This document shows, in pieces, positions 1 through 64,000 of a DNA stretch of 64,000 bases (its first letter is position 1; the number at the start of each line of letters is the position of its first letter). The translations under genes were made by a program, and so were the position numbers. The notes below the pieces were generated by a model. The model was not told the origin of the DNA. It saw only the letters and a list, made by a program, of their open reading frames with translations, and searched no databases. The DNA comes from Colius striatus. Taxonomy: Eukaryota > Chordata > Aves > Coliiformes > Coliidae. The stretch covers positions 34,378,664 through 34,442,663 of the forward strand of contig NC_084768.1 in assembly GCF_028858725.1 (NCBI RefSeq), given 5' to 3'.

Positions 1-1400
1 AGGTCCCACCCCTAAGGTCCCATCCCATCCCAACCCTAGGGTCCCATCCAGTCCCATCCCATCCCATTCCATCCCACCCCTGGGGTCCCATCCCATCCCA
101 TCCAACCCCTGGGGACCCATCCCAACCCTGGGGTCCAATCCAGTCCCATCCCATCCCACCCCTGGGATCCTATCCCACCCCTGGGGTCCCATCCCATCCC
201 ACCTTTGGGGACTCATCCCACCCCTAGGGTCCCATCCCATCCCAACCCTGGGGTCCCTTCCAGGCCCATCCCAACCCTGGGATCCCATCCCACCCCTGAG
301 GTCGCATCCCGCTCCTGGGGTCCCATCCCATCCCACTCCTGGGGACTCATCCCACCCCTGGGGTCCCATCCCATCCCACCCCTGGGGACTCATTCCATCC
401 CTGGGGTTCCATCCAGTCCCATCCCAAACCTGGAGTCCCATCCCACCCCTGAAATCCCACACCTGGGGTCCCATTCCAACCTCAGGGTCCCATCCCACCC
501 TTGGGGTCCCACCCCTGGGGTCGCATCCCACCCCTGGGGTCCCATCCCAGTCTCATCCCACCCCTGGAGTCCCATCCCAGTCCTATCCCATTGCACCTCT
601 GAGGTCCCACCCCTAAGGTCCCATCCCATCCCAACCCTAGGGTCCCATCCCATCCCACCCCTGGGGTCCCATCCCACCCCTGGGGTCCCATCCCACCCCT
701 GGGGTCCCATCCCATCCCAAACCTGGGGTGCCATCCCACCCCTGAAGTCCCATCTCTGGGGTCCCATCCCAACCTCAGGGTCCCATCCCAGTGTCATCCC
801 ACCCCTGGAGTCCCATCGTAGTCCTATCCCATCCCACCCCTGAGGTCCCACCCCTGGGGTCCGATTCCACCCCTGGAGTCCCATCCCATCCCACCCCTGG
901 GGTTCCATCCCTAGGGTCCCATCCCATCCCAACCCTGGCGTCCCAGCCAGTCCCATCCCATCCCACCCCTGGGGTCCCATCCCACCCCTGGGGTCCCATC
1001 CCTCCCCTGTGGTCCCATCCCAACCCTGGGGTCCCTTCCAGTCCCATCCAACCCCTGAGGTCCCATCCCAACCCTGGGGTCCCATCCCATCCCACCACTG
1101 GGAACTCACCCCACCCCTGGGGTCCCATCCCATCCCATCCCACCCCTGGGGACCCATCCCATCCCAACCCTGGTTTCCCATCCCGTCCCATCCCACCCCT
1201 GGGGTCCCAACCCGTCCCATCCAGTCCCATCCCAACCCTGGGGTCCCGTCCCACCCCTGAAGTCCCATCCCTGGGGTCCCATCCCCACCTCAGGGTCCCA
1301 TCCCACCCCTGGGGTTCCATCCCTAGGGTCCCATCCCATCCCAACCCTGGTGTCCCATCCAGTACCATCCCATGCCATCCCACCCCTGGGGTCCCGTCCC
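1..1400 (-). repeat. Minisatellite A (GPT intron), left edge
   Basis: Tandem repeat of CCCATCCCACCCCTGGGGT with optional extra CCCAT or variant AACCCTGGGG blocks. It lies downstream of GPT exon copy 1 in the transcript, where it is G-rich. It matches about 38790 onward of the window. Confidence 0.95.
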
Positions 1401-1422
1401 AGCCCTTGGTGCCGCAGGGTAC

Positions 1423-1666
1423 CGGTGGGGTTGCCAGGGTTGATGATGCACAGCACCCGTGGGCAGCAGTGCCGGCGGCCCTCGGCCAGCGCCCGCCGCA
1501 GCTCACTCAGCGCCAGTGCCCAGCAGCGTTCGTCGTCCAGGTAGTAGCCGAGCTGCACGGCCCCCAGCTCGGCGATGGTGGCCGAGTACAGCGGGTACTG
1601 CAGGATGGGCATCAGCACCCGCGTGCGAGAGGGCGCCCAGCCCGTCACCAGCAGCTTCAGGATTGT
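1423..1666 (-). CDS. GPT: GPT (alanine aminotransferase 1) internal exon, copy 1
   Basis: This is an 81-codon-plus-one-base exon of cytosolic alanine aminotransferase, a PLP enzyme exchanging amino groups between alanine and 2-oxoglutarate. Read on the minus strand it starts [10 protein letters not shown], continues through [20 protein letters not shown], and ends IINPGNPT. This matches the human ALT1 block around the NPGNPTG substrate/PLP-binding motif. The acceptor reads ccctcag before the exon, and the donor is ACCG followed by gtaccc. The exon leaves phase 1, which fits the next GPT exon type seen at 26432-26511. Minisatellite B lies upstream in the transcript and minisatellite A downstream. 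Downstream exons of this copy would lie left of the window. It is one of five copies of this exon. Copies 1 and 2 keep the canonical NPGNP. The exon itself is intact, but whether it belongs to an expressed gene is unknown. Confidence 0.93.
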
Positions 1667-1667
1667 C

Positions 1668-3310
1668 TGAGGGCACAGGCATGGCATGATGGGGGGCGAC
1701 GGGGGGCTGCGGACACGATGGGGGGGGACACGAGGATGGTGAGGGGAGAAGGGGATGGTGAGGGGACACGGGGATTGTGGAGGGGAGAAGGGGGTGGGGA
1801 GGGGACACGGGGGAGATGAGGGGACATCGAGATGGTGAGGGAACATGGGGCTGGTGAGGGAACACGGGGGTTTTGGAGGGGAGAAGGGGGTAGTGAGGGG
1901 AAAACGGGGTTGGTGAGGGTAAAAGGGTTGGTGAGGGGACACAGGGGTGGTGAGGGGAAAATGGGTTAGTGAGGGGACACGGGGGGGCGTGAGGGGACAC
2001 GGGGGGGTGAGGGGACACGGGGACGGTGAAGGGAGTAGGGGATAGTGAGGGGACACAGGGGTGGTGAGGGGAGAAGGGTTGTGAGGGGAGAAGGGGATGG
2101 TGAGGGGACATGGGGGTGGTGAGGGGACACGGGGGGGGTGAGGGGAAAAGGGCTCGTGAGGGGACACGGGGCAGTTAGGGGGACACGGGAGTGGTGAGGG
2201 GAGAAGGGGAAGGTGAGGGGACAAGGGGGTGGTGAGGGGACATTTGGCAGGTGAGGGGACACGGGGGTCGTGAGGGGTCACGGGGCTGGTGAGGGGACAC
2301 GGGGGGTTGAGGGGACACGGCGGGGGTGAGGGGACATGGGGATGGTGAGGGGAGAAGGGGGTGGTGAGGGGAGAAGGAGGTTGAGGGGAAAAAGGGGTGG
2401 TGAGGGGACATGGCGGGGGTGAGGGGACACTGGGATGGTGAGGGGACAAGGGGGTGGTGAATGGACACGGGGATGGTGAATGGACACGGGGATGGTGAGG
2501 GGACAATGGGATGGTGACGGGTACAGTGTGGGCACAGGGATGGTGAGGGGACATGGGACTGGTGAGGGGACACAGCGGGTGGTGAGGGGACACGGGGGTT
2601 GGTGAGGGGAGATGGGGATGGTGAGGGGACACGGGGATGGTTAGGGGACAAGGGGATAGTGAGAGGACACAAAGGTGTGGGCACAGGGATTGTGAGGGGC
2701 ACAGTGTGGGCACAGGGATGGTGAGGGGACATGGTATGGGCACAGGGATGGTGTGGAGCACGGTGTGGGCACAGGGATGGTGTGGGACACTGTACATGGA
2801 CAATGAGGGGACATTGTGTGGGCATAGGGACGGTGTGGGGGCACAGTGTGGGCACAGGGATGGTGAGGGACATGGTGTCGGCACAGGGATCATGAGGGGA
2901 CATGGTGTGGGCACATGGATGGTGAGGGGACACAGTGTGGGCATAGGTAAGGTGGGGGGACACGGTGTGGGCACAGGGACAATGAGGGGACACGGTGTGG
3001 GTACAGGGATGGTGAGGGGACATGGTGTGGGTACAGGGATGGTGGAGGGCACACTGTGGGCACAGGGACAATGAGGGGACACGGTGTGGGCACAGGGACT
3101 GCGTCGGACATGGTGTGGGCATAAGGATGGTGTGGGACAAGGTGTGGGCACAGTGATGGTGTGGGACACGATGTGCGCACAAGGATGATGTGGGACACGG
3201 TGTGGGCACAGGGATGGTGAGGGGCACAGTGTTGGCACAGGGAAAATAAGGGAAGACAATGTGGGCACAGGGATGGTGAGGGGACATGATGTGGGCACAG
3301 GAACAATGAG
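1668..3310. repeat. Minisatellite B (GPT intron)
   Basis: Tandem repeat of GGTGAGGGGACACGGGGAT. From about 2520 it shades into the variant GGTGTGGGCACAGGGATGG. It starts directly at the acceptor of GPT exon copy 1. Confidence 0.95.
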
Positions 3311-4960
3311 GGTCCCGTCCCAGTCTCATCCCACCCCTGCAGTCCCATCCCAATCCTATGCCATCCCACCCCTGAGGTCCCACCCCTGGGGTGCCATCCC
3401 ATCCCAACCCTGGGGTCCCATCCAGTCCCATCCCATCCCACCCCTGGGGTCCGATCCCATCCCTAGGGACCCATCCCACCCCTGGGGTCCAATCCGGTCC
3501 CATCCCATCCCACCCCTGGGGACTCATCCCACCCCTGGGGTCGCATCCAATCCCAACCCTGGGGTCCCATCCCATCCCACCATTGGGGTCCCATAGCACC
3601 CCTGAAGTCCCATCCCACCCCTGGGGTCCCATCCCATCCCACCCCTGGGGTCCCATCCCACCCCACCCCTGGATACTCATCCCACCCCTGGGGTCCCATC
3701 CCATCCCACCCCTGGGGTCCCATCCCATTCCTGGGGTCCCATCCTATCTCACCCCTGGGGACTCATCCCACCCCTGGGGTCCCATCCCATCCTACCCCTG
3801 GGTCCAATCCAGTCCCATCCCACCCCTGGGGTCCCATCCCATCCCACCCCTGGGGTCCCATCCCACCCCACCCCTTGGGACCCATCCCAACCCTAGGGTC
3901 TCATCCCATCCCAACCCATCCCATCCCACCCCTTGGGTCCCATCCTATCCCAACCCTGAGGTTCCATCCAGTCCCATTCCATCCCACCCCTGGGGTCCCA
4001 TCCCACCCCTGGGGTCCCATCCCACCCCTGGGGTCCCATCCCACCCCTAAGTTCCCATCCCTGGGGTCCCATCCCAACCTCCGGGTCCCATCCCACCCCT
4101 GGCTCCCACCCCTGGGGTCGCATCCCACCCCTGGGGTCCCGTCCCAGTCTCATCCCACCCCTGGAGTCCCATCGCTGTCCTATCCCATCCCACATCTGAG
4201 GTCCCACCCCTGGGGTCCCATCACATCCCAACCCTTGGGTCCAATCAAGTCCCATCCCATCCCATTCGATCCCAACCCTGGGGTCCCATCCCATTCCATC
4301 CCATCCCACCCTGGGGTCCCATCCCACCCCTGGGGTCCCATCCAGTCCCATCCCAATCCTGGGGTCCCATCCCATCCCTGAACTCCCATCCTTGGGGTCC
4401 CATCCCAACCTCAGGGTCCCATCCCAGTGTCATCCCACCCCTGGAGTCCCATCCCAGTCCTATCCCATCCCACCTCTGAGGTCCCACCCCTGGTGTCCCA
4501 TCCCAACCCTGGGGTCCCATCCAGTCCTATCCCATCCCATCCCACCCCTGGAGTCCCATCCCATCCCAACCCTGGGGTGCCATCCAGTCCCATCCCAACC
4601 CTGGGGTCCCATCCCACCCGTGAAGTCCCATCCCTGGGGTCCCATCCCAACCTCAGAGTCCCATCCCAGTGCTATCCCACCCCTGGAGTCCCATCGTAGT
4701 CCTATCCCATCCCACCCCTGAGGTGCCACCCCTGGGGTCCCATCCTACCCCCCCCCTGGGGTCCCATCCAGTCCCATCTCATCCAATTCCATCCCATCCC
4801 ATTCCATCCCATCCCACCCCTGGGGTCCCATCCAGTCCCATCTCATCCCATTCCATCCCATCCCACCCCTGGGGTCCCATCCCCTCCCACCCCTGGAGTC
4901 CCATCCCATCCCACCCCTGGGGTCCCGTCCCACCCCTGGGGTCCCGTCCCAGCCCTTGGT
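3311..4960. repeat. Minisatellite A between GPT exon copies 1 and 2
   Basis: Same family as 1-1400. It abuts minisatellite B abruptly at AATGAGGGTCCCGTCCC. The corresponding array in unit 2 (46365-49012) is longer by an internal duplication. Confidence 0.95.
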
Positions 4961-4972
4961 GCCGCAGGGTAC

Positions 4973-5216
4973 CGGTGGGGTTGCCAGGGTTGATGATGCA
5001 CAGCACCCGTGGGCAGCAGTGCCGGCGGCCCTCGGCCAGCGCCCGCCGCAGCTCACTCAGCGCCAGTGCCCAGCAGCGTTCGTCGTCCAGGTAGTAGCCG
5101 AGCTGCACGGCCCCCAGCTCGGCGATGGTGGCCGAGTACAGCGGGTACTGCAGGATGGGCATCAGCACCCGCGTGCGAGAGGGCGCCCAGCCCGTCACCA
5201 GCAGCTTCAGGATTGT
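4973..5216 (-). pseudogene. GPT: GPT internal exon, copy 2, 3' splice site lost
   Basis: This is the same 244-bp alanine aminotransferase exon as at 1423, with an open frame and canonical IINPGNPT. The base pair just upstream of the exon has changed. In the transcript direction the intron now ends ccctcaa instead of ccctcag, so the obligatory AG acceptor is destroyed, while the other four copies keep AG. The donor, ACCG then gtaccc, is unchanged. The exon sits 3550 bp from copy 1, with minisatellite B between them and minisatellite A on the left. The exon should be skipped or use a cryptic acceptor, so I call it a decaying copy. A single-base assembly error would give the same picture. Confidence 0.85.
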
Positions 5217-5217
5217 T

Positions 5218-6240
5218 TGAGGGCACAGGCATGGCATGATGGGGGGCGACGGGGGGCTGCGGACACGATGGGGGGGGACACGGGGATGGTGAGGGGAGAA
5301 GGGGATGGTGCGGGGAGAATGGGATGGTGAGAGGACACAATGGTGAGGGCACAGGGACGGTGAGGGGACACGGTGTGGGCACAGGGATGGTGTGGGGAAC
5401 AGTGTGGGCATAGGGCTGGTGAGGGGAGAAGGGGCTGGTGATGGGATACGGGGGTGGTGACGGGAGAAGGGGCTGGTGAGGGGACATGGGGATGGTGAGG
5501 GGGCACGCGACGGTGAGGGAGAAGGGAACGGTGAGGGGAGAATGGGACGGTGAGGGGACACGGGAGTGGTGAGGGGACACGGGAGTGGTGAGGGGAGAAG
5601 GGGTTTCTCAGGGGATATGGGGGGGGTGAGGGAACATGGGGATGGTGAGGGGGCACGGCGACGGTGAGAGGACACGGCGACGGTGGGGGGACAAGGGGGT
5701 GGTGAGGGGAGAAGGGGGTGGTGAGGGGACACGGGGGGGGTGAGGGGACACGGGGGTGGTGATGGGACACGGGGACGGTGAGGGGACACGGGGAGGGTGA
5801 GGGGACACGGGGGTGGTGAGGGGAAAAGGCGATGGTGAGGGGACCAGGAGGTGGTGAGGGGACATGGGAGGGGTGAGTGGACACGGGGACGGTGAGGGGA
5901 GGAGGGGATGGTGAGGGGAGAAAGGGATGGTAAGGGGACACGGGGGTGGTGAGGGGACACGGGGATGTTGAGGGGAGAATGGGATTGTGAGGGGACACGG
6001 GGGTGGTGAGGGTAGAAGGGGATGGTGAGGCGACACCGGTATGGTGAGAGGATAAGGGGATGGTGAGGGGAGAACGGGATGGTTAGGGGACACGGGGGTG
6101 GTGAGGGGAGAAGGGGATATTGAGGGGACATGGGGCTGGTGAGGGGACGGGGGGGGGTGAGGGGAGAAGAGGATGGTGAGGGGAGAAGTGGATGGTGAGG
6201 GGAGAAGGGGATGGTGTGGGGACACGGGAATGGTGAGAGG
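5218..6240. repeat. Minisatellite B right of GPT exon copy 2
   Basis: GGTGAGGGGACACGGGGGT/GGGAGAAGGGG units. It is about half the length of its unit 2 counterpart (49275-51390). Confidence 0.93.
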
Positions 6241-6440
6241 AGAAGAAAAATGCTTTTCCCAAGTGCCTTCGGGTGACATGGGACGGTGAGGGTGGGGGGC
6301 ACCCACAGGGGAGGGGGCACCCCAGGAGCACCCATGGGTGGGGAGGGGGTGGGGTGGCACAGGACACCCATCAGAGTCCAGAGATGTATAAAGAGAGTTA
6401 TTAATTAGAAGCCCCTAATTATCAACCCAGATGCTGATTT
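6241..6440. other. Unique island between minisatellites B and C, unit 1
   Basis: This is non-repetitive sequence with TATAAA and AT-rich TTATTAATTAGAAGCCCCTA. It is conserved at 51391-51590. No gene recognised. Confidence 0.5.
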
Positions 6441-6950
6441 CTCCTCGGGGTTGGGGGGGCCATGGAGGGGAAGGGGGGGGGTCCCCAAAGTGGAGGGTCT
6501 TCAAGGTGGGTGTCACAAGGAAGGGGGGTCCCCAAAGTGGTGGGTGTCCCCAGGGGAGGGGTCCCCAAAGTGGGAGTTCTTAAGGTGGGAGGGGTCCCCA
6601 AAGTTGAGGGGGATGTCTCCAAGGTGGAAGGGGGGGGGGGTCACTGAATGGGAGGGTGTCCTTAAGGTGAGGGGTCCCCAAAGTGGGAGTCCTTGAGGTG
6701 GGGGGGGGTCCCCAAGGTGGGTGTCACTAAGGTGGGGATGTCCCCAAAGTAGGGAGGGAGGGTCCCCAGGGTGAGAGGGGATCCCCAAGATGGGTGTCCC
6801 CAGGGGGAGGGGAGGTCCTCAAGGTGGGTCACCGAGGTGGGGGGGTCCCCAAGGCGCAGGGTGTCCCCAGGGTGAGGGGGGGTCCCCAAGGCGCAGGGGG
6901 TCCCCGAGGTGGATGTCACAGGGTGAGGGGGGTCCCGGGGTGGGGGGACC
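6441..6950. repeat. Minisatellite C, unit 1
   Basis: Imperfect repeats of GGTCCCCAAAGTGGGAG and GTGTCCCCAGGG spacers. It has one internal block fewer than unit 2. Confidence 0.88.
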
Positions 6951-7160
6951 CCCAGCGCTACCTCCCAGCTCTGCTCACTGCCAGGCGTGGGGGGGAGGGG
7001 GCACAGGGGGAGAGTGGGGGGTGACACCGGTGTGTGGGGGGGTCCCCCAGGGCCGGGAGGGGTCCCCACTTCCTCTGTTCCCATTTAACCCTTCACCCCC
7101 TCAGCTTTTGTATTTCCCCTCTCTCTTTTTCCCCTTTTTCCCCCTTTTTTTCCGTTTCAG
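6951..7160. other. Short unique stretch and pyrimidine tract before the candidate terminal exon
   Basis: It contains CGCTACCTCCCAGCTCTGCT, conserved in unit 2, then G-rich sequence and the long pyrimidine tract. No coding segment could be assigned. Confidence 0.4.
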
Positions 7161-7365
7161 CCTTTTATTTATTATGAAGCCGACTCCGAGCATCTCCCCG
7201 AGCCCCCCCACCCCCGCGGCTGTGGGACCCTCCCCGCGCGTGGGCCGGGGGCGTGGGGGGGGGGGGGGGATCCAGATTGGGGGGAGGGGTCCAGAGGCAC
7301 CACCCCCCCGCCCCTCCCCCCACGGCGTGTGAATAAAAAGCGTCTGGCTGGTGCTGCTCGTTCCC
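7161..7365 (+). other. Candidate terminal exon with poly(A) signal, unidentified gene, unit 1
   Basis: A long pyrimidine tract (7090-7158) ends in CCGTTTCAG, a textbook 3' splice site. One frame after it reads PFIYYEADSEHLPEPPHP and stays open into a G-run. AATAAA lies at 7332-7337, followed by TCTGGCTGGTGCTG. This has the shape of a short last exon of a plus-strand gene upstream of C8orf82. In human, ARHGAP39 occupies that place in the same orientation, but I do not recognise the protein and do not assign it. The stretch is conserved at 52469-52670. It could equally be a non-coding 3' UTR. Confidence 0.4.
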
Positions 7366-7379
7366 TCTGGAGCCCGTCA

Positions 7380-8370
7380 GTGGGGGGCTACGGGGGGCTA
7401 TATGGGCTATGGGGGGCTATATGGGCTATAAGGGGGCTATGGGGGGCTGTAGGGGCTATGCTGAGGCTATGGGGGGCTACCAAGATACTATGGGGGCTAT
7501 GAGGAGGCTATGGGGGGCTATGAAGGGTCTATGGGGGGCTATGAGGGGGATATGAGGAGGCTATGGGGGGCTATATGGGCTATAAGGAGGCTATGGGGGG
7601 CTATGAAGGGGTTATAGGGGATATGAAGGGGCTATATGGGCTATGGGGGGCTATATGGGCTATAAGGGGCTATAGGGGCTATGAGGATGCTATGGGGGCT
7701 ATGGGAGCTATGAGGGGTTTATAGGGGCTATGAAGAGACTATGGGGGGCTATGAGGGGGCTATAGGGGCTATGAGGATGCTATGGGGGCTATAGGGGCTA
7801 TGGGGGGCTATGAAGGGGCTATAGGGACTATGAGAAGGCTGTGGGGGGCTATGAAGGGGCTATAGGGACTATGAGAAGGCTATGGGGGGCTATGAAGGGG
7901 CTATAGGGACTATGAGAAGGCTATGGGGGGCTATGAGGAGGCTATAGGGGCTATGAGAAGGCTATGGGGGGATATATATGGTGTCTATAGGCTTCGGGGA
8001 TGCCTATAGGGATATATGTGGGTGCCTACAGAGTTATGGGGGTGTCTGTATGGTCATGTGTGTGTCTATAGGGATACGTGTGTGTGTGTCAGTAGGGTTA
8101 TGGGGGTGTCTATAGGGATATATGTGGGTGCCTATATGGTTATGGGGGATGCCTATAGGGATCTATGGGGGTGTCTATAGGGTTAAGGGGGTGTCTGTAA
8201 GGTTATGGGGGTGTCTCTAGGGGTACATAGGAGTGTCAGTAGGGTTATGGGGGTGTCTGTAGGGATACATGTGGGTGTCTATAGGGTTAAGGGGGTGTCT
8301 GTATGAGTGTCAGTACAGTTATGGGATGTCTCTAGGGATATATGTGGGTGTCTATAGGGTTAAAGGGGTG
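7380..8370. repeat. Minisatellite D, unit 1
   Basis: The first part (to about 7970) is GGGGCTATGAGGAGGCTAT-type repeat. The second part is GGGTGTCTATAGGGATATAT-type repeat. Both lie upstream of C8orf82 exon 2. Confidence 0.92.
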
Positions 8371-8835
8371 TCTGTAAGGATCCGAGAGGATCCCCAATGG
8401 ATCCTGGGCAGAACCCCCCAAAAAAGACCTCAACGGACCCAGGACAGAGGCTGGATGGATGCTGGATGGATCCCAACCGGATCCCAGCACAGAACCCAAA
8501 CAGATCCTGGACAGTCTCCCCCAAAAAGACCTAAATGGACCCAGAGCAGAGGCTGGATGGATCCCAAATGGATCCCGGGCAACCTCCCCCTCCCCAAAAG
8601 GCTCTGAATAGACCCAGAATATAGCCTGGATGGATCCCAGCCCAGAGACAAAACAGATCCTGGATAAACCTCCCCAAAAAGACCCTAAATGGACCCAGGA
8701 CACAACCTGGATGGATCCCAGCCCAGAGACAAAACGGATCCTGGACAAAACCCCCACAGAAAGACTCTAAATGGACCCAGGGCAGAGCCTGGATGACCCC
8801 TGGATGGATCCCAGCCAGATCCCATTTGGCCCTTG
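8371..8835. repeat. Minisatellite E, unit 1
   Basis: Roughly 75-bp tandem units containing GATCCCAGCCCAGAGACAAA, GATCCTGGACAAAACCCC and TAAATGGACCCAGG. It ends 45 bp before the C8orf82 exon 2 acceptor. Confidence 0.88.
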
Positions 8836-8879
8836 CACCTGCTTTGGGATTTTGAGGCTTTCCCCCTTTTTTTCTGCAG

Positions 8880-8928
8880 CTTTTCCTCGATGACACCAAA
8901 GTGAAGAACTTCATCACTTGCTTCAAAG
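8880..8928 (+). CDS. C8orf82: C8orf82-like (UPF0598) exon 2, unit 1
   Basis: This 49-bp exon encodes LFLDDTKVKNFITCFK plus one base, closely matching the human C8orf82 segment LFLDDSKMKNFITCFK. A pyrimidine-rich tract and ctgcag precede it, and AAAG then gtactg follows. It leaves phase 1, and its last G joins AC of the exon at 10804 to give Asp, as in the human protein. Exon 1, which should carry the EYFYY-type motif, was not found between here and the left edge. That interval is minisatellite. UPF0598 proteins are small and poorly characterised, and I assign no biochemical function. Confidence 0.9.
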
Positions 8929-8934
8929 GTACTG

Positions 8935-9525
8935 GGATCCCCCCAAAACCCCCCCAAATCCTCCCCCTCAAAAATGACCCCTCAAAATGCCCCCAAAAAC
9001 CAAAATCCCCCCAAAATTATCCCCCAGATCCTCTCTGACCCCTTCCAAAGACCCAAATCCCACCCTAAAACCCCCACAAATAAGCCTCCCAAATCCTCCC
9101 AAAAAACCAAACCCCAACTCCCCCTGACCTCAAAAGCCCCCAAATCCCAACAATCCCCCTCAAATCCCCCCAGAGCATCCCAAAACCTCCCAAATCCCCC
9201 CCAAAAAGCCTCCAAATTCTCTCCAACCCCCCAAAAAATGTCAAAATCCACCCAAACCCCCCAAAATATCCCCCCAAACAATCCCCAAAGTCTCCAAATC
9301 CCCTCAAATCACCCCAAAAAACACAAAAGCCCCCCAGAAACCCCCAAATCCTCTCCAGCCCCCCCAAAATAAATCCCCCGAAAATCCCCAAAGCCCCCAA
9401 ATCCCCCCCAAAAAACCCCAAATCCCCTCCAACTCTCTCCAAAAGCAATCAAAATCCCCCCAACCCCCCCAAATCTCCTCAGAACCCCTCCAAAAAACCA
9501 AATCACCCCAAAATCCCTCCTCCCC
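8935..9525. repeat. C/A-rich low-complexity repeat F, unit 1
   Basis: Degenerate CCCCCAAATCCCCCCAAAA repeat that begins almost at the C8orf82 exon 2 donor. It contains no G-run on the transcript strand. Confidence 0.88.
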
Positions 9526-10800: not shown

Positions 10801-10803
10801 CAG

Positions 10804-52255: not shown

Positions 52256-52468
52256 ACCCCCAGCGCTACCTCCCAGCTCTGCTCACTGCCAGGCGTGGGG
52301 AGGAGGGGGCACAGGGGGAGAGTGGGGGGTGACACCGGTGTGTGGGGGGGTCCCCCAGGGCCGGGAGGGGTCCCCACTTCCTCTGTTCCCATTTAACCCT
52401 TCACCCCCTCAGCTTTTGTATTTCCCCTCTCTCTTTTTCCCCTTTTTCCCCCTTTTTTTCCGTTTCAG

Positions 52469-52670: not shown

Positions 52671-52684
52671 TCCCTCTGGAGCCC

Positions 52685-54225: not shown

Positions 54226-54276
54226 GCCCTTGCACCTGCTTTGGGATTTTGAGGCTTTTCCCCTTTTTTTCTGCAG

Positions 54277-54325
54277 CTTTTCCTGGATGACACCAAAGTG
54301 AAGAACTTCATCACTTGCTTCAAAG
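54277..54325 (+). CDS. C8orf82: C8orf82-like (UPF0598) exon 2, unit 2
   Basis: This is the counterpart of the exon at 8880. It encodes LFLDDTKVKNFITCFK plus one base, with one silent change (CTG for CTC). The acceptor ctgcag and donor AAAG/gtactg are retained. Exon 1 was not found in this unit either. Confidence 0.9.
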
Positions 54326-54331
54326 GTACTG

Positions 54332-54930
54332 GGATCCCCCCAAAAGCCCCCCAAATCCTCCCCCTCAAAAATGACCCCTCAAAATGCCCCCAAAACCCAA
54401 AATCCTCCCAAAATTATCCCCCAGATCCTCTCTGACCCCTTCCAAAGACCCAAATCCCACCCTAAAACCCCCACAAATAAGCCTCCCAAATCCCCCCAAA
54501 AAACCAAACCCCAACTCCCCCCGACCTCAAAAGCCCCCAAATCCCAACAATCCCCCTCAAATCCCCCCAGAGCATCCCAAAACCTCCCAAATCCCCCCCA
54601 AAAAGCCTCCAAATTCTCTCCAACCCCCCAAAAAATGTCAAAATCCACCCAAACCCCCCAAAATATCCCCCCAAACAATCCCCAAAGTCTCCAAATCCCC
54701 TCAAATCACCCCAAAAAACACAAAAGCCCCCCAGAAACCCCCAAATCCTCTCCAGCCCCCCCAAAATAAATCCCCCGAAAATCCCCAAAGCCCCCAAATC
54801 ACCCCCAAAAAAACCCCAAATCCCCTCCAACTCTCTCCAAAAGCAATCAAAATCCCCCCAACCCCCCCAAATCTCCTCAGAACCCCTCCAAAAAACCAAA
54901 TCACCCCAAAATCCCTCCTCCCCATCACCA
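54332..54930. repeat. C/A-rich repeat F, unit 2
   Basis: Counterpart of 8935-9525. Confidence 0.88.
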
Positions 54931-54934
54931 TTCA

Positions 54935-56140
54935 GTAGCGTTTTAGCCTTAATTAGGGTCTTTAATTAGAGACTCATCTTTATTTGGGGTCTCATCTGTA
55001 TTGGGGGGGCTGTGGGGTGGGGAGAAGATACTCTCATCCCCTTCATGGCCTTCGTAGGTGCCAAAACATCCTCCTCTCAACCTAATTTGCATATTAATCA
55101 CCACCTTAATTAACCACTTCCTGCCCTTAATTGCTCCCAGGCACTTGGTAACACTGATCCCTACTCCCCCTCCCCCCCCCCCCCCCAACCTCCCTCAGCC
55201 CCTTCAAATCGCTTTCCCATTAAGAAACACCCCCCTTTCTCCGGTGTTAATTAGGGGAGGGTTAATTAACGAGGGTGTGAGATTAATTAACGTTGCCTTC
55301 CTCACTCACCTGGAGCTGAACCCTGGCAGCCTCTATGGGAGGGTTCATTATGGAGAATTGGGGGTTAGTTAGGAGGGTTGGGGTTAATTAGGAGGGTGGA
55401 AGTTAATTAGGAGGTTTAGGGGTTGATTAGTGGGGTTACTTAGGGTCCATCCTGGCAGGTATCACCTTCCTCTTCCTCACTCCCTTAGCAGTGGTTGTTC
55501 TGAGCAGGTTTAATCATGAGAGGACTGAGGGTTGGAGGTTAATTAGGAGGGTTGGGGTTAATTAAGAGCACTGGGGGTTAATTGTGGGAAGGGGTTATCC
55601 CAGCAGACGTTGCCTTTCACATCTTCTTCTTCCTCACCCTCCCTTAGAATCGCAGTGGTTGTTTTGAGGGGGTTAACCATGGGGGGACTGGGGGTTAGTT
55701 AGGGGCGTTGGAGGTTAATTAGGGGGATTGGAGGTTAATTAGGAGCACAGGGAGTTAATTCAGGGAAGGGGTTAATGATGGTTTATCCCAGCAGACGTTG
55801 CCTTCCTCCTCCTCATCTTCTTCCTCACCCTCCCTTAGAACCGCAGTTGTTCCAAGTGGGTTAATCATGGGGACACTGGGGGTTAGTTAGGGGGGCTGGA
55901 GGTTAATTAGGAGGGTTGGAGGTTAATTAGGAGCACACGGAGTTAATTGTGGGAAGGGGTTAATGATGGTTTATCCCAGCAGACGTTGCCTTCCTCCTCC
56001 TCCTCTTCTTCCTCACCCTCCCTTCGCAGCCCCGCAGCGGCCGTTCCCAGCGGGCTAACCACGAGCGGCGATGCGGCTTAATTAAAAGGGGGGGCTGTTA
56101 ATTAAGGAGAGGCGCGGGTTAATGAGGGTCCATCCCGGCA
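54935..56140. repeat. TTAATTA-rich repeat G in C8orf82 intron 2, unit 2
   Basis: Counterpart of 9526-10800. The poly-C stretch (about 55164-55186) is much shorter than in unit 1. Confidence 0.88.
55285..56070 (+). repeat. Five degenerate copies of the C8orf82 exon 3 start, unit 2
   Basis: The same decoy series as in unit 1 lies at about 55285, 55446, 55598, 55783 and 55965 onward, before the true exon at 56142. Spacing differs slightly by small indels. Confidence 0.8.
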
Positions 56141-56141
56141 G

Positions 56142-56647
56142 ACGTGACCTTCCTCACGTTCTTCTTCACGCGGCTGGAGCGGAACCGCAGCGGCCGCTAC
56201 GAGCGCGAATTCCCGTTCGTGTCCCGCTGCGGCGCGGAGCGCAACCTCCTGCGCTGCGAGCACAGACCCATCGTCTTCACCCGCCTCCTGCCCCCGGACG
56301 CCTCCTCCTCAGCCTCCTCCTGCTCCCGCCGCGCCGTGCTGTCGTTCTGCGGCGGCGGGGAGCGGCTGGCCGTGCCGTTCCGGCCCGAGGCGCTGGTGAT
56401 GCTGCCGGAGAACGGGCGCTTGTACCACCCGGCGCCGGGCCGGGCGGGGGGCGCGGGGCCGGTGCGCTCAGCGCTGGCTCTGGAGTGGGGGTCCCGCTTG
56501 GAGTACGAGCAGGGGCCGGAGCAGCCCCCGACTCACTTTTGGTGGGAGGGGAAGAGGTATCGGCTCACGGGGGAGCTGGTGCAGCTGCTGCGGGGAGGGG
56601 AAGGGGCGGGGGAGGCGGAGAGCGGCGGAGCCGCGGGGCGGGGGTGA
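56142..56647 (+). CDS. C8orf82: C8orf82-like (UPF0598) last coding exon, unit 2
   Basis: This is the counterpart of the exon at 10804, with the same 506-bp length and the same stop. It begins DVTFLTFFFTRLERNRSGRY after cccggcag. The only amino-acid change seen is Phe for Leu in AVPFRPEAL, and Phe is also the human residue. The frame is intact. The strong conservation contrasts with the broken LRRC14 and GPT exons around it. The function of UPF0598 proteins is unknown. Confidence 0.95.
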
Positions 56648-56812
56648 GGCTTGGAGGGGGTGGGAAGGGGCATTGCATGGCCCCGGGCGAGGAGGAGGAG
56701 GAGGAGGAGGCAGAGCTGGTGCTCAGCCACACCGTGTGGCTGATGCTGTGGTGAGGTGAGCGTTGCTGGTGCCAGGGATGTGGGTGTTGTGTGTGGGTCC
56801 CCCCACTGTGAT

Positions 56813-56818
56813 ATTAAA
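56813..56818 (+). terminator. C8orf82: Putative poly(A) signal of C8orf82, unit 2
   Basis: ATTAAA lies about 165 bp after the stop, matching unit 1. Confidence 0.55.
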
Positions 56819-57331
56819 GGTCTCTGGCAATTGAAATGAGCCTAGAGGTGATGGGTGCCACTGCAGCAGTGTGGGTGCAGCTGTGGAGAGGTTGGTGCAG
56901 CTGTGGTGGGTGACACACGGTGCTACTGCCACAGTGGGGGTGTCCCCATGGGTGCTGCCACGCTGACAGTGTTGCTGCCACACTGTGGGTGCCACTGTGG
57001 TGATGTTGGCTGGTGTGTAGAGGGAAGGGAAGTTCTTCAGAGGGATGTGGCCAGGGGCTGAGGTTGCCCGAGGGCAAGGAACCGGCAGCGTGCCCAAGGG
57101 GGCAAGAAGGCCAGTGGCAGCCTGGCTGGGCTGAGCAGTGGGGTGGCAGCAGCCCCAGGGCAGGGATTGTCCCCTGTGCTGGGCCCTGGGGAGGCTGCAG
57201 CTCCAGGGCTGTGCTCAGTGCTGGGCCCCTCACTCACTGCCACAGGGACACTGAGGGGCTGCAGGGAGAGAAGATGCACTGGGAAGCTCTGGGCTAAATG
57301 AGGGTACCTGAGGCAAAGGTTCAGTCTGCAG

Positions 57332-57684
57332 AGAACGAGGCTCAGAGGAGACCTGATCACTCTGACTCCCTGGCTGTGGCTGAGAGGGTCGGTCTCTGCT
57401 CCCAAGTTAAAAGCTACAGGCCAAGAGGAAAGGGGCTCAGGGTGCCCCAGGGGAGGTTGAGGCTGGAGCTGAGGCAGAACTGTTTCCCTGAGAGGGGTGT
57501 CAGCCCCTGTGCCAGGCTGCCCAGGGAGCTGGGGGAGTGCCCAGCCCTGGAGGGGTCCCAGAGCCGTGGGGCTGAGGTGCTTGAGGGCCGTGGCTCAGTG
57601 GTGCCTGTGGCACTGTGGGGTCAGGGTTGGACTCCAGCAGCTCAAAGGGCTTTTCCATCTGTAATGATTCTCTGGTCAGTGCCC
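57332..57684 (+). mobile_element. CR1 LINE 3'-end fragment, unit 2
   Basis: This is the same CR1 insertion as at 11960, in the same place between C8orf82 and LRRC14, so it predates the unit duplication. Confidence 0.87.
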
Positions 57685-57822
57685 TGTGTGCCAGAACAGC
57701 AGCCAGCGCTCTCCTTGGTCCATTAAAAGCAGAAGAGCTCCATCCCCTCCGCTGAGCTCTGCCACTTCCTCCTGCCAAGCATCCCAGGAGGACTTGGGTT
57801 AATCGGGCAAGGTGGGGTTGGC

Positions 57823-57828
57823 TTTAAT
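57823..57828 (-). terminator. LRRC14: Putative poly(A) signal of LRRC14, unit 2
   Basis: Minus-strand ATTAAA lies about 80 bp beyond the LRRC14 stop, as in unit 1. Confidence 0.5.
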
Positions 57829-57908
57829 GAACTCACCATAACCGAGTGGCACAGCCCAGAGCCCGGCACAGCGCCCCGAGGTGAAGCTTCCCTGGGGGGG
57901 GGGGGATG

Positions 57909-58430
57909 CTACAAGCTGAAGTAGTCGATGGCTCCGTAGCGCTGGAGGCTGGTCGCCCACACGGCGTCTGCTCTACCCGCGCTCGCCAGCAGCCGGCACA
58001 GCTCCGCCGGGAAACCCTCCTCCCCCTGCGTGGGGGTGTGGTGGCCGGAGCCCCGCGGCGGCTGCGAGTAGCCCACGAGGCGCAGGTCGGGCAGGGCCGG
58101 GCCAGGCCGCCCAGCGCCGCCGCGCTCAGGGGGGTGCCGAGGAGACCGAGGCAGCGCAGGCGGCGGCAGCGGCGCAGCGCCGGCAGCAGCAGCTCCAGCT
58201 CCGCGTCCCCCAGCTGACACTCCAGCAGCTCCAGCTGCAGCAGCGAGCGCGAAGCGGCTTCCAGCAGCGTCCGCAAGGGTTGCAGGAGGCTGGGGGACGT
58301 GAGGTTGTGGCCGCTCAGGTCCAGCTGGAGCAGGGAGGGCGCGTGGAGGCTCGAGGACAGGAAGATGAGGTCGGAGGGGAGCAGGCAGCAGAAGGCCAGC
58401 GCCAGACTCTCCAGGGGAGTCTGCAGCTCG
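57909..58430 (-). pseudogene. LRRC14: LRRC14 last coding exon, frameshifted, unit 2
   Basis: This is the 522-bp counterpart of 12537-13058, with the same LRR stretch (LQLDLSGHNL, LECQLGDAELELLLPAL) and the same GAIDYFSL end in a shifted frame. The frame break lies at about 58097-58117, at the identical GGCCCGGCCC site. One residue at the exon start differs (Glu for Gly before LQTPLES). The shared break means either an inherited lesion or a systematic sequencing loss. Confidence 0.87.
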
Positions 58431-58654
58431 CTGGGAGGACAGGGTGGGGTGGCAGAGTGGGGAACCCCCAAAGCACCCCCAAACCACCACGAGGCTCCCC
58501 CACCTCCAAATCCCCTGAGGCCCTCCCCAAACCAGCCACAGACCCCTAAAACCCTGAGGCTGCCCAAATTCCACCCCCAGGATCCCCCAAAATCCCTCAG
58601 CTCCCTCAAAGTCTCCCCCAACCCCCGTGAGGTATCCCCAAACCTCCTGAGACC

Positions 58655-58918
58655 AGACCCCTGAGCTGGGGCAGAGCTGCTCTGGGACTCCATCTCCTCA
58701 TAAATGTAGACAGTTGCACAGTGCCAAACTGGGCAACTCCCCTAAAACCCCCTGAGCCAAGGCAGAGCTGCTGTGGGACTCCATCCCCTCTTAAATCTTT
58801 GCTCACAGGGCAAATGCCAAACCTTCCAAACCCTCTCCCCAAAACCCCCTGAGACCAACCCCTGAGGTAGTGCAGAGCTACTGTTGGACTCCAGCCCCTC
58901 TTAAATCTGCCCCCACAG
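58655..58918. repeat. LRRC14 intron VNTR, about 2-3 units, unit 2
   Basis: This is the same roughly 100-bp unit as at 13290 (GCAGAGCTGCTGTGGGACTC), but with only two to three copies against about six in unit 1. It accounts for most of the length difference of this intron. Confidence 0.85.
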
Positions 58919-59021
58919 GGTGTGGGTGATACCCCAATGCCACCCCCCCCCCACACACACACATTCCCTCCCGCTGCAGCGTGTGAAGGTTTTGGAGTCC
59001 CTCCCCCAGCGGGCAGCTTAC

Positions 59022-59409
59022 CCCAGGAGCTGCCTGAGTCTCCCAGAAAGCCTGGAGGAGTACAAATCGAGTTCCTTGAGGGCAGGCAGGGCCCGGAGGT
59101 GAGCGGCCAAGCAGCGGATGCCGGCGTCCGTGCCCGGGGGCCGGGTGGCACACGTCCACATTGCTGTAGGGCAGCTTGAGGCTGCGCAGCGCGGGGAAGC
59201 GGCCGAGGTGAGGCAGCACTGCGCACAGCCCCGCCAGCCCCAGGTTGTTGAAGCGTAAAACAACTCTGCGGACGGCGGCAGGCTCCAGGGAGTCCAGCAG
59301 GGAGACGACGGTGGAGACGGAGAGCTCCTCGGCGTGGAAGTCGCGGCAGAGCAGGCGCAGGGGGGCGCAGGGCGAGCGGAGGGCGGCGCGCAGCAATAGG
59401 CGCGTAGCA
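59022..59409 (-). pseudogene. LRRC14: LRRC14 upstream exon, frameshifted and satellite-truncated, unit 2
   Basis: This is the counterpart of 14043-14430. It encodes PLRLLCRDFHAEELSVSTVV and RFNNLGLAGLCAVLPHL, then SNVDVCHP. It has the same frame break near CCCCCGGG (about 59134-59149) before the GTDAGIRCLAAHLRALPALK segment. Coding homology again ends where the 39-bp satellite starts. Missense differences from unit 1 (VRRVVLRF against VCRVVSRF; DVCHP against DVRRT) show real divergence between the two copies. Confidence 0.86.
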
Positions 59410-60020
59410 ATAGGGCACCCCTAAGCCAGCCCCCATCAATAGGGCATCCTATAGCACCCCTAAGCCAGCCCCCATCAATAGGGCATCCTATAGCACCCCT
59501 AACCCAGACCCCATCAATAGGGCATCCTATAGCACCCCTAACCCAGACCCCATCAATAGGGCATCCTATAGCACCCCTAACCCAGCCCCCATCAATAGGG
59601 CATCCTATAGCACCCCTAACCCAGCCCCCATCAATAGGGCATCCTATAGCACCCCTAACCCAGCCCTCTATCTATAGGGCATCCTATAGCACCCCTAAGC
59701 CAGCCCCCATCAATAGGGCATCCTATAGCACCCCTAACCCAGACCCCATCAATAGGGCATCCTATAGCACCCCTAAGCCAGCCCCCATCAATAGGGCATC
59801 CTATAGCACCCCTAAGCCAGCCCCCATCAATAGGGCATCCTGTAGCACCCCTAACCCAGCCCCCATCAATAGGGCATCTTAGAGCACCCCTAACCCAGCC
59901 CCCATCAATAGGGCATCTTATAGCACCCCTAAGCCAGCCCCCATCAATAGGGCATCTTAGAGCACCCCTAACCCAGCTCTTTATCTATAGGGCATCCTAT
60001 AGCACCTCTAATCCAGCCCC
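59410..60020. repeat. 39-bp satellite H, about 15 units, unit 2
   Basis: Same 39-bp unit as 14431-15640 but about half the copy number. It again starts inside the LRRC14 exon's 5' side and is followed to about 60297 by the same degenerate units and spacer. Confidence 0.95.
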
Positions 60021-60297
60021 CCATCAATAGGGCACCCCACAGCACCCCTAGATCTGCACCTCATCAATAGGGTACCCCTAACCCAGCCCTCTCTCAATAG
60101 GACCTCCCATAGCACTCCTAACCCTATCCCCCATTAATAGGGCACCCTATAGCACTCCTAACCCAGCTCCCCATCAATAGGGAACTCCAGGGCAGGACCC
60201 ATGACCCACCCCTCTTAATGAGGGGTACCCCCAGCACCCCATAAAGGAAGCCTACAGCAGGATCTCCAACACCCCCCTTCCCTCCCTGGGCCCCCCT

Positions 60298-61320
60298 GTG
60301 CTGCCCTCCCCCCCCGACCCCCCTCAGCTGCCCTCACCCCCCCCTCGATCCCCAGGGTCCCCTTCAGCTGCCCTCACCCCCCCCAATCCCCGGGGTCCCC
60401 TTCATCTGCCCTCAATCCCCCAGTCCCTGGGGACCCCTTCAGCTGCCCTCACGCCCCCCAATCCCCGAGGCCCCCCTCAGCTGCCCTCACGCCCCCCCAA
60501 TCTCCGGGGTCCCCTTCAGCTGCCCTCAACCCCCTAATCCCCGGGGTCTCCCTCAGCTGCCCTCACGACCCCAATCCCCGGGGACCCCTCAGCTGCCCTC
60601 ACGCCCCCAATCCCCGGGATCCCCCTCAGCTGCCCTCACGCCCCCAATCCCCGGGATCCCCCTCAGCTGCCCTCACCCCCCACAATCCCGGGGGACCCCT
60701 CAGCTGCCCTCACGCCCCCAATCCCTGAGGCCCCCCCTCAGCTGCCCTCACGCCCCCCAATCCCCGGGATCCCCCTCAGCTGCCCTCACCCCCCACTCCC
60801 CGGGGACCCCTCAGCTCCCCTCACGCCCCCCCAATCCCCGGGATCCCCCTCAGCTACCCTCACACTCCCCCAATCCCCGGGGACCCCTCAGCTGCCCTCA
60901 CCCCCCACAATCCCCGGGGTCCCCCTCAGCTGCCCTCACCCCCCACAATCCCCGGGGTCCCCCTCAGCTGCCCTCACGCCCCCAATCCCCGGGATCCCCC
61001 TCAGCTGCCCTCACGCCCCCAATCCCCGGGATCCCCCTCAGCTGCCCTCACCCCCCACAATCCCGGGGGACCCCTCAGCTGCCCTCACGCCCCCCAGTCC
61101 CCGGGACCCCTCAGCTGCCCTCACGCCCCCAATCCCGGGGGACCCCTCAGCTGCCCTCATGCCCCCAATCCCGGGGGACCCCTCAGCTGCCCTCACGCCC
61201 CCCAGTCCCCGGGGACCCCTCAGCTGCCCTCACGCCCCCAGTCCCCGGGGACCCCTCAGCTGCCCTCATGCCCCCAGTCCCCGGGGACCCCTCAGCTCAC
61301 CTCCCGCCCGCCGCCCCGCT
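60298..61320. repeat. Minisatellite I, unit 2
   Basis: CAGCTGCCCTCACGCCCCC units leading into the unit 2 promoter. Confidence 0.93.
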
Positions 61321-61622
61321 CCCGCCGGGCCCCTCACGGCCGCGCTTCCAGGCATGCGCACTGCACCCCGGCACCGCCCCTCCGCCAATCAGAGCGAGAG
61401 TTTCACCACGGAAGGCGGGCCCGGCGTCGTTACTAGGTGCCGCCTGCCATCCTCGCCCGCCCATTGGCTGCCGCCGTGTCTGTCATCGCTTCCTCCCTTC
61501 TTATTGGCTGAAGGGCGGCGGCAGCGGGAAGTTCGATCTGAGCCCCAGACGCTGCGGTCCCTGCGCGGCTCCGGGAGGTCTCGGATCCCCCCGGGCCGGG
61601 GAACGGCCCCGCTCCGCACGCC
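61321..61622. promoter_or_regulatory. LRRC14/RECQL4 promoter, unit 2
   Basis: The unit 2 copy of the divergent CpG promoter has CCAAT at 61385-61389, two inverted CCAAT boxes and the NRF1-like GCATGCGCA. It is present once in the part of unit 2 visible here. Confidence 0.75.
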
Positions 61623-61706
61623 ATGGAGCGGCAGCGGGAGGTCAAGGCCCTGCTGAAGAGCTGGGAAGCGGCTTTTGTCCGGGAGCAGCGGAGGAAGCCC
61701 GGCCAG
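61623..61706 (+). CDS. RECQL4: RECQL4 exon 1, unit 2
   Basis: The same 28-codon first exon occurs in the second tandem unit, with an identical translation and donor. It is followed by intron 1 minisatellite J to the window end, so any remaining RECQL4 exons would lie to the right. This is the only exon 1 copy in the window that could still be attached to a complete RECQL4. Confidence 0.9.
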
Positions 61707-61764
61707 GTGCCCGCTGCGGGGGGCGGGGATGGGGAGGGGCGGCGGGGCAAAGCGGGGTTTTAAT

Positions 61765-64000
61765 GGGGTTCTGAGGGGAAAGGTGGAGTTTTGAGAGGAA
61801 AAGTGAGGGGTTTTGTGAATTTCTGAGGAACAAGTGGGAATTGGGAGGAGCTTGGAGGGGAAAAGTGGGGTTTGGTGGAGGTTTGAGGGGAAAAGTGTTT
61901 TTTTGTGGGGTTCTGAGGGGAATAAAGGTTTTTGTAGAGCTTGAAGGAGAAAAGAGTGGGGTTGGTTGTCTGCTGAGGGGGAACAGTGGAGATTGGTGGG
62001 GTTCTGAGGGGAAAAGTGCGGGCTTGGTGGAGTCTGGAGTGGAAAGGTGGAGGTTCGGTGGGGTTTTGAGGGCGAAAGTGGGTTTTTGATGGGGTTCTGA
62101 GGGGAAAAGTGGAGTTTTGGTGGAGTGTTGAGGGGAAAAGTGGGGGTTTGGTGGATTTCTGAGATACAAGTGCGATTTTAGTGGAGCTCTGAGGGGAAAA
62201 GTGGGGGTTTTGTGGAGTGTTGAGAAGAAAAGGGGTTTTAGTGGAGTTCTGAGTGAACAAGTGGCGATTTGGAGGATTTTTGAGGGTAAAGGTAAGTTTT
62301 TGGTGCGGTTCTGAGGGGAAAAATGGGTTTGGGCAGAGTTTTGAGGGCAACAGTGGGTTTTACTGGAGTTTTGAGGGGAAAAGTGGGGTTTGGTGGAGTT
62401 TTGAGGGGAAAAGTGTTTTACTGTGGGGTTCTGAGGGGAATAAAGGTTTTTGTAGAGCTTTAAGGAGAAAAGAGTGGGGTTGGTGGTCTGCTGAGGGGGA
62501 ACAGTGGAGATTGGTGGGGTTCTGAGGGGAAAAGTGGGGGTTTGGTCGAGTTTTGAGGGGAAAAGTGGAGGTTCGGTGGGGTTTTGAGGGTGAAAGTAGG
62601 GTTTTGATGGGGTTCTGAGGGGAAAAGTGGAGTTTTGGTGGAGTGTTGAGGGGAAAAGTGGGTTTTTTTTGTGGAGTGTTGAGAAGAACAGTGGGTTTTA
62701 CTGGAGTTTGGAGTGAAAAAGTGGGGGTTTTGGTGGAGTGTTGAGGGGAAAAGGGGTTTTAGTGGAGTTTGGAGTGAAAAAGTGGCGATTTGGTGGATTT
62801 TTGAGGGTAAAGTAGGTTTTTGGTGTGGTTCTGAGGGGAAAAATGGGTTTTGGTGGAGTTTTAAGGAGAAAAGAGTGGGGTTGGTTGTCTGGTGAGGGGG
62901 AACAGTGGAGATTGGTGGGGTTCTGAGGGGAAAAGTGCGGGCTTGGTGGAGTCTGGAGTTGAAAAGTGGAGGTTCAGTGGGGTTTTGAGGGCGAAAGTGG
63001 GTTTTTGATGGGGTTCTGAGGGAAAAGTGGAGTTTTGGTGGAGTTTTGAGAGGAAAAGAGGGGAGTTTGTGAATTTCTGAGGAGCAAGTGGGAATTGGGA
63101 GGAGCTTGGAGGGGAAAAGTGGGGTTTTGGTGGAGTGTTGAGGGGAAAAGTAGGGGTTTGGTGGATTTCTGAGATACAAGTGCGATTTTAGTGGAGCTCT
63201 GAGGGGAAAAGTGGGGGTTTTGTGGAGTGTTGAGAAGAAAAGGGGTTTTAGTGGAGTTCTGAGTGAACAAGTGGCGATTTGGAGGATTTTTGAGGGTAAA
63301 AGTAAGTTTTTGATGTGGTTCTGAGGGGAAAAATGGATTTTGGCAGAGTTTTGAGGGCAAAAGTGGAGGGTTTGTGGACTTCTGAGGAACAAGTGGGAAT
63401 TTGGAGGAGCTTTGAGGGTATAAATGAAGTTTTGGTGGAGTTTTCAGATGAAAAGTGGAGTTTTGGTGGAGTGTTGAGGGAAAAAGTGGGGTTTTGGTAG
63501 AGTTTGGAGTGAAAAAGTGGGGGGTTGGTGGGTTTTTGAGGGTAAAAGTGGGGTTTTGGTGGGGTTTTGAGGGGAAAATGGGTTTTTTGTAGAGTTTTAA
63601 GGAGAAAAGAGTGGGATTGGTGGTCTGCTGAGGGGGAACAGTGGAGATTGGTGGGGTTCTGAGGGGAAAAGTGCAGGCTTGGTGGAGTCTGGAGTGGAAA
63701 AGTGGAGGTTCGGTGGGGTTTTGAGGGCGAAATTGGGTTTTTGATGGGGTTCTGAGGGGAAAAGTGGAGTTTTGGTGGAGTTTTCAGATGAAAAGTGGGG
63801 TTTTTTGTGGAGTGTTGAGAAGAACAGTGGGTTTTACTGGAGTTTGGAGTGAAAAAGTGGGGGTTTTGTGGAGTGTTGAGAAGAAAAGGGGTTTTAGTGG
63901 AGTTTGGAGTGAAAAAGTGGGGATTTGATGAATTTTTGAGAGTAAAAGTAGGTTTTCGGTGTGGATCTGAGGTGAAAATGAGTTTTTGTGGGGTTTTAAG
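61765..64000. repeat. Minisatellite J (RECQL4 intron 1), unit 2, to window end
   Basis: GGGGAAAAGTGGGGTTTTGG units. The block from about 63290 matches 18070 and 22540. The array runs off the right edge. Confidence 0.93.

Follow-up and report, generated by a model that had tools for sequence, protein, structure and literature searches.

Subtelomeric duplicons of the human genome and macrosatellites of the D4Z4 type are tandem or patchwork units that carry pieces of genes and are exchanged between chromosome ends. Here, we analysed a stretch of 64,000 nucleotides from the bird Colius striatus (assembly GCF_028858725.1, contig NC_084768.1, hereafter C12, positions 34,378,664 to 34,442,663; the whole stretch is called the window), which holds fragments of C8orf82, LRRC14, RECQL4 and GPT in a tandem array, and we followed this repeat through the assembly. 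Very probably, the array is a subtelomeric macrosatellite made of gene-debris units of about 42 kb, which has spread between chromosome ends and is partly homogenised. A subtelomeric macrosatellite is a known kind of structure, found here in an unusual form. The human duplicons and D4Z4 share with the array a subtelomeric location, gene pieces within units, and presence on and exchange between several ends. Indeed, we found long head-to-tail units (four on C12) at several chromosome ends in a constant orientation relative to the tip, and exchange between non-homologous ends is indicated by a junction identical on six of six ends compared and by supported cross-chromosome pairs in a tree. The D4Z4/DUX4 family, with a double-homeobox open reading frame in a 3.3-kb unit, differs in unit size and gene content, although no search for a homeobox was made; here, one syntenic block of about 42 kb stands in tandem at at least 23 ends. 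Unlike in human duplicons and D4Z4, 78% of the length of one unit (unit c, see below) is minisatellite, as delimited by Tandem Repeats Finder (TRF), and the gene pieces are those of C8orf82, LRRC14, RECQL4 and GPT.

In chicken dot chromosomes, a “sequence stuttering” was described, in which imperfect repeats of tens of bases swell introns and flanking exon sequence is repeated (Hron et al. 2026, PMC12954441). Stuttering is presented there as strictly local and as occurring in live genes, and it is reported that no pseudogenes of lost genes were encountered. The C. striatus array resembles what is described there by its swollen introns, full of imperfect tandem repeats tens of bases long (the TRF repeats that make up 78% of unit c), its repeated exons, its GC-rich genes and its variable lengths. 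In stuttering, the edge of an exon is copied repeatedly into its own intron; in the array, whole GPT and RECQL4 exons with their flanks are copied, and not an edge only. However, while stuttering affects a live gene of a dot chromosome, we are dealing here with a degraded satellite at many chromosome ends, in which LRRC14 and GPT are broken on C12. A survey of 117 vertebrates reported that duplications in birds are biased to interchromosomal ones near chromosome ends (PMC13431229); this survey is statistical, and its main text mentions neither LRRC14 nor GPT. Two other avian repeats have been described. PO41 is, like the array, an avian subtelomeric tandem repeat, found in chicken and quail, but compared by description its unit is only 41 bp (PMC4301066). 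HINT1W, a 5.6-kb gene-bearing satellite of the chicken W chromosome, is likewise a long gene-carrying unit amplified in tandem in a bird, but it occupies one chromosome and carries a complete gene (PMC9974502). Our searches of open-licence PubMed Central papers, judged by titles and abstract openings, gave no description of the present repeat, and a word search through the main texts of PMC13192246, PMC11061957 and PMC8449477 gave no occurrence of RECQL4, LRRC14 or GPT.

Our analysis is based on one assembly of 1.21 Gb in 191 contigs. The window is situated 14-78 kb before the end of C12 (34,456,810 bp), and we read it with 100 kb of additional sequence on its left and with the remaining 14 kb of the contig on its right (178 kb in all, with 0 N). 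A landmark search revealed that the final 147 kb of C12 consist of four consecutive head-to-tail units, a to d, free of gaps, so that the tandem order is observed directly. C8orf82 is located at positions 34313675, 34354606, 34389451 and 34434789, with spacings of 40.9, 34.8 and 45.3 kb. Of these units, the window covers the tail of b, then c and the beginning of d, and the repeat continues past it on left and right alike. An earlier note, made from the window alone, had described the order GPT exons, C8orf82, LRRC14, RECQL4 exon 1 as occurring twice in direct orientation, with near-identical exons, minisatellites of different lengths and human synteny, and all of this was borne out. Self-BLAST of the window aligns 5274-13489 with 50429-58853 (91.3% identity with gaps counted, direct, offset 45.2 kb), next to many more direct matches, and the two C8orf82 copies are 45.3 kb apart. 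The succession of landmarks is repeated: GPT exon A (1407, 4957), C8orf82 (8880, 10804), LRRC14 (12540, 14042) and RECQL4 exon 1 (16966) are followed by GPT exon A (34559, 44515, 49014), C8orf82 (54257, 56126), LRRC14 (57912, 59021) and RECQL4 (61542). Counting substitutions only, units c and d differ at 16 of 2677 bases (0.60%), and the four C12 units are 0.45-1.25% apart over about 2650 bp. The RECQL4 block with its minisatellites spans 7665 bp in one unit of the window and 3942 bp in the other (3348-7665 bp over the C12 units), and the last RECQL4 remnant is separated from the following lectin-like piece by 1009 bp in all four C12 units. The human order, C8orf82-LRRC14-RECQL4-GPT, and its relative strands are both matched by the unit, in reverse.

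The array is widespread at the chromosome ends of this genome, the genome-wide counts of repeats being lower bounds. The search with the C8orf82 exon gave 66 rows that correspond to at least 60 copies, 57 of them on contigs larger than 1 Mb and 3 on small contigs. All of the 57 copies lie at most 238 kb from an end and run towards the tip, at 23 ends of 17 contigs; this floor of copies, their terminal position and their orientation are direct observations. The contigs bearing C8orf82 at their ends measure 12.9-122.6 Mb, to which two small contigs are added. The spacing of units has a median of 41.9 kb (n=34, range 29.7-53.9). For LRRC14, 50 rows represent 48 array copies, one of them split over two rows, and the 45 copies on large contigs agree in orientation (45/45); the row at C6:1.96 Mb, 41% identical, was taken as a paralogue. 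GPT exon A gave at least 150 rows (150 of 185 candidates scored), one of which is a gene on C16, and by eye it is present without a listed C8orf82 at four more ends (starts of C15, C19 and C26, end of C24). GPT exons B and C gave 132 rows that, by eye, are at contig ends except for the C16 gene. Telomere repeat was found at 7 of the 15 termini probed (ends of C3, C8, C15, C17 and C39, starts of C7 and C23). The start of C3 has 5 kb of N, telomere repeat at 5.0-5.8 kb and its first array GPT exon at 26 kb. In the C3 stretch 5006-6500, telomere repeats, followed by degenerate ones, grade into a GGTCAAGGGTCAAAAGG-type repeat ahead of the array; the comparison of the C3 start with the C12 stretch gave no matching rows.

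Several ends also share the inner edge of the array. On C12, an AT-rich tandem repeat (C12:34308664-34309433) gives way to the unit at one base, and on five other ends this repeat lies about 4 kb inside the innermost C8orf82. We observed the junction at the identical base on all six ends compared (C12 end, C8 end and the starts of C8, C11, C13 and C14). Since independent insertions are unlikely to give the same junction, the terminal block was probably transferred in one piece to these six ends.

Divergence and tree were obtained from a sample of 22 copies (the 20 best-scoring of the 66 rows and two C12 units), which is biased to intact copies. Between ends, the mean differences are 0.4-1.9% for the non-tandem stretches measured, and divergence is mostly lower within an end than between ends (0.16% vs 0.50% for 11900-12460, 0.37% vs 0.63% for the C8orf82 coding part). 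In the tree, the end labels need 10 changes, for a minimum of 9 and a mean of 15.6 after shuffling, and none of 200 shuffles was as low. Nonetheless, supported groups join copies of different chromosomes: C12 unit d pairs with one unit of C18, a second C18 unit goes with C17, and C24 is nested within C13. This indicates that copies pass between chromosomes.

These results bear on two rival explanations. According to the first, also envisaged in the earlier note, the assembler would have put two haplotypes in series. C12 does stop inside the array, where assemblers fail, and the C8 start and the small contig C45 share an LRRC14 stop at the same match range and identity and may be retained haplotigs. 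We did not find, however, two alleles of one locus with no other copies: C12 has four serial units with 0.45-1.25% substitutions, one of its units nests with a unit of another chromosome, the inner junction is the same on 6/6 ends and the orientation on 57/57 copies, which makes a false duplication very unlikely. According to the second, a mobile element would carry the units. Each unit indeed contains twice a CR1-like interspersed piece, but such an element would be expected elsewhere as well and in both orientations, whereas the large-contig copies of C8orf82 are all terminal in a single orientation and share their inner junction wherever it was compared; we therefore consider this route extremely improbable.

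Some points weigh against a macrosatellite exchanged between chromosome ends, or narrow its basis. C12 itself terminates within the array, and the reading from flank through array was made on C12 only. Among the probed termini, five are N (starts of C8, C11, C13, C14 and C40), two stop in array minisatellite (C18 end, C6 start) and one is other sequence (C13 end). By eye, GPT is oppositely oriented in two rows of C15 (320 and 361 kb from the contig start), and on C24 two rows are 277-293 kb away from the contig end. The six junctions were picked for an AT-rich repeat about 4 kb from a C8orf82 copy, among the 25 candidates scored out of 289; on C39, C40, the C3 end and the C6 start, this repeat is at least about 14 kb from the nearest listed C8orf82, and these ends were outside the comparison. 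Finally, besides the bias of the sampled copies, the tandem stretch 9306-9494 shows the reverse trend, with 4.7% divergence within ends vs 3.8% between. As for the AT-rich repeat itself, among the matches listed most are at the C6 start (177-320 kb), and some are at the C4 start and on C164 and C165, without a listed C8orf82.

Two sets of ends deserve mention for their likeness. The arrays of the C39 end and the C40 start (contigs of 42.3 and 89.0 Mb) are alike, with an LRRC14 stop in both and the AT-rich repeat at mirrored distances; from size and these alike ends only, we guess that C39 and C40 could be W and Z with a common pseudoautosomal tip. On the small contigs C45 and C42, the array copies have lesions of the same kinds as at the C8 start and the C8 end, respectively, and these contigs could represent other haplotypes of the C8 ends or parts of them left unplaced.

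The unit is composed of C8orf82 exons 2 and 3 (+), the last two exons of LRRC14 (-), RECQL4 exon 1 (+), a lectin-like piece (+) and GPT exons C, B and A (-). On C12, GPT exon A has 4 copies in unit a and 3 each in units b and c, and RECQL4 exon 1 is present once or twice per unit with an additional 38-bp remnant. The five copies of GPT exon A in the window, the second RECQL4 exon 1 and its remnant in unit c and the lectin-like piece come in addition to what the earlier note had seen. The lectin-like piece sits between RECQL4 and GPT, where MFSD3 is located in human. The features of the window are as follows.

1 to 6245: distal part of unit b, with TCCCA-type minisatellite, GPT exon A, GGGGACAAGGGGATGGTGA-type minisatellite, TCCCA-type minisatellite, GPT exon A and GGGGACA-type minisatellite
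1407 to 1723, minus strand: GPT exon A of unit b
4957 to 5273, minus strand: GPT exon A, unit b copy 3, with the NPGNPTG motif
6246 to 7382: start of unit c; the array's inner edge on the six compared ends begins within the corresponding stretch
8880 to 8928, plus strand: putative C8orf82 exon 2, with AG acceptor and GT donor in the sequence
10804 to 11309, plus strand: C8orf82 last exon, frame open (Pfam PF14956)
12540 to 13070, minus strand: LRRC14 last exon, with a frameshift common to the four C12 units
14042 to 14436, minus strand: LRRC14 penultimate exon, 5′ end cut by the 39-bp minisatellite, frameshifted
14436 to 15789: 39-bp minisatellite, 34.8 copies
16966 to 17100, plus strand: RECQL4 exon 1 (Sld2-like start), first copy; second copy at 20058 to 20192, 38-bp remnant at 24631 to 24668
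17206 to 19813: 31/62-bp, then 39-bp minisatellite, separating the RECQL4 exon 1 copies
25640 to 25830, plus strand: F-type-lectin-like exon piece (FBP32, 3cqo, E 5.8e-16)
26211 to 26378, minus strand: GPT exon C
26420 to 26530, minus strand: GPT exon B
27141 to 34558: long TCCCATCCCACCCCTGGGG-type minisatellite, 7.4 kb
34559 to 34875, minus strand: GPT exon A, unit c copy 1, NPGNPTG altered
44515 to 44830, minus strand: GPT exon A, unit c copy 2, frameshifted, with zero substitutions relative to unit b copy 1
49014 to 49330, minus strand: GPT exon A, unit c copy 3, motif altered
51392 to 64000: first part of unit d, with minisatellites
56142 to 56647, plus strand: C8orf82 last exon of unit d
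57912 to 58442 and 59021 to 59409, minus strand: LRRC14 pieces of unit d
61542 to 61676, plus strand: RECQL4 exon 1 of unit d

The array genes are mostly debris. C8orf82 was identified by the Pfam domain DUF4505 (E 1.2e-47) and the joined GPT exons by the structure of alanine aminotransferase 2 (3ihj, E 7e-66), while RECQL4 exon 1 matches 2kmu with an E of 0.0045 only, its assignment being supported by synteny. For LRRC14, we assume the identity from the human sequence and from synteny; Pfam detects one leucine-rich repeat, below the cut-off. LRRC14 begins mid-exon at the 39-bp minisatellite and has two frame changes, identical in 4/4 C12 units, relative to the frame expected from the human protein. 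Only three internal exons of GPT were recognised. Among the 10 copies of GPT exon A on C12, the NPGNPTG motif is kept in 3 and changed in 5, and the other 2 copies are frameshifted, these being unit b copy 1 and unit c copy 2, which have a common frameshift and no substitution between them. In a genome search with the C-terminal part of human GPT2, there was no match in the array and a single match on C16, which doubles as positive control; this C16 gene, matched by GPT exons A, B and C at 63-65%, was taken as GPT2. The last exon of C8orf82 is unbroken in 48 of 60 copies, with a TGA in 6 and a frameshift in 6. Neither C8orf82 exon 1 nor the N-terminal exons of LRRC14 were found in the 178 kb of C12 with words of the human sequence, which diverged exons could escape.

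We also looked for the remainder of RECQL4. A query with the human helicase part gave two weak matches, on C9 and C23. The PF16124 profile detected one RecQ gene, on C9, near the weak match of this contig. The C23 match was rejected as RECQL4: it is RECQL5, its nine best chains being helicase Q5 (best E 3.4e-18) and the RECQL4 chain reaching an E of 1.3e-06. The PF11719 profile gave no match here, but as its controls also matched in 0 of 14 genomes, this result carries no information. Altogether, no intact parent locus of the gene block was recognised in the assembly, and because GC-rich dot chromosomes are often poorly assembled, a loss of GPT, LRRC14 or RECQL4 from the species is not established.

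These fragments, with the genome-wide counts, bear on the proposal of a recent tandem segmental duplication of a whole conserved gene block. The direct orientation and the near-identical exons of the window units are in its favour, and the earlier note was right about the conserved order and about the kind of event. Nevertheless, the block is not whole, as only fragments of the genes are present, and the event is not a local one with two copies: C12 has four units in a row, and at least 60 copies of C8orf82 exist, 57 of them at 23 chromosome ends, so that the copies on other contigs contradict it. Neither does the block look functional, with LRRC14 truncated and carrying two frameshifts common to the four C12 units, and GPT recognised by three internal exons with a C-terminal query that matched only the GPT2 locus. 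A local duplication of a functional block is thus decidedly unlikely.

C8orf82 alone might have been kept by selection as a multicopy gene expressed from the arrays. Its last-exon match is uninterrupted in four-fifths of the copies (48/60), and its coding variants in the sample (8 nonsynonymous, 6 synonymous) give a ratio of nonsynonymous to synonymous rates (omega) of about 0.6; its coding diversity of 0.61% is also lower than that of the 3′ stretch 11310-11900 (1.43%), of the non-tandem part of intron 2 (1.67%) and of the LRRC14 last exon (1.73%). However, the 8:6 ratio is not different from neutral (p=0.39, with low power), two further non-coding stretches are less diverse than the coding part (0.35% and 0.47%), a fifth of the copies are interrupted by the TGA or the frameshifts, and exon 1 was not found on C12 with the words of the human sequence. 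The coding diversity being within the range of other stretches, the near-identity of the exons requires no selection. A functional multicopy C8orf82 seems unlikely to us, though some constraint on this gene may be present.

We can propose the following scenario for the macrosatellite. The founder would have been a degraded GC-rich gene block near a chromosome end, with introns and exons already expanded into minisatellites, and joined to the AT-rich tandem repeat. Unequal exchange would then have multiplied this block head to tail, giving units of about 30-54 kb, and the terminal block could have been copied, together with its inner junction, to other ends via break-induced replication or unequal terminal recombination. 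Ongoing exchange within and between ends may keep the non-minisatellite parts close, while minisatellite lengths change freely. We infer here the enzymatic route of recombination, the order of events and the origin of the founder in a dot-chromosome-like region. The simplest history would be that a stuttering terminal block decayed and then became common to chromosome ends. Most likely, the array encodes no needed protein, and its role, if any, would be that of a buffer sequence of chromosome ends. More tentatively, the arrays might be the fossil of a gene block otherwise lost here: GPT (ALT1), LRRC14 and their neighbours would have decayed in a stuttering GC-rich terminal region, then been adopted as the terminal satellite of at least 23 ends, possibly of both sex chromosomes. 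We regard this as possible but doubtful; if true, it would link avian gene loss, the instability of stuttering and the birth of a subtelomeric satellite.

Thus, in this bird, chromosome ends carry a degraded gene block turned into a long tandem unit that many chromosomes share and exchange. In annotation or copy-number pipelines, the array could give rise to dozens of spurious gene calls for C8orf82, LRRC14, RECQL4 and GPT, and the absence or multiplicity of these four genes in such assemblies should be judged carefully. The array also supplies orientable markers to trace exchange among chromosome ends.

Finally, the unit contains an internal repeat of about 290 bp (12015-12300 and 25359-25640, 88% identity), which is also found at 69-72% identity just beyond the array. 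Present twice per unit, this repeat resembles the 3′ end of CR1.

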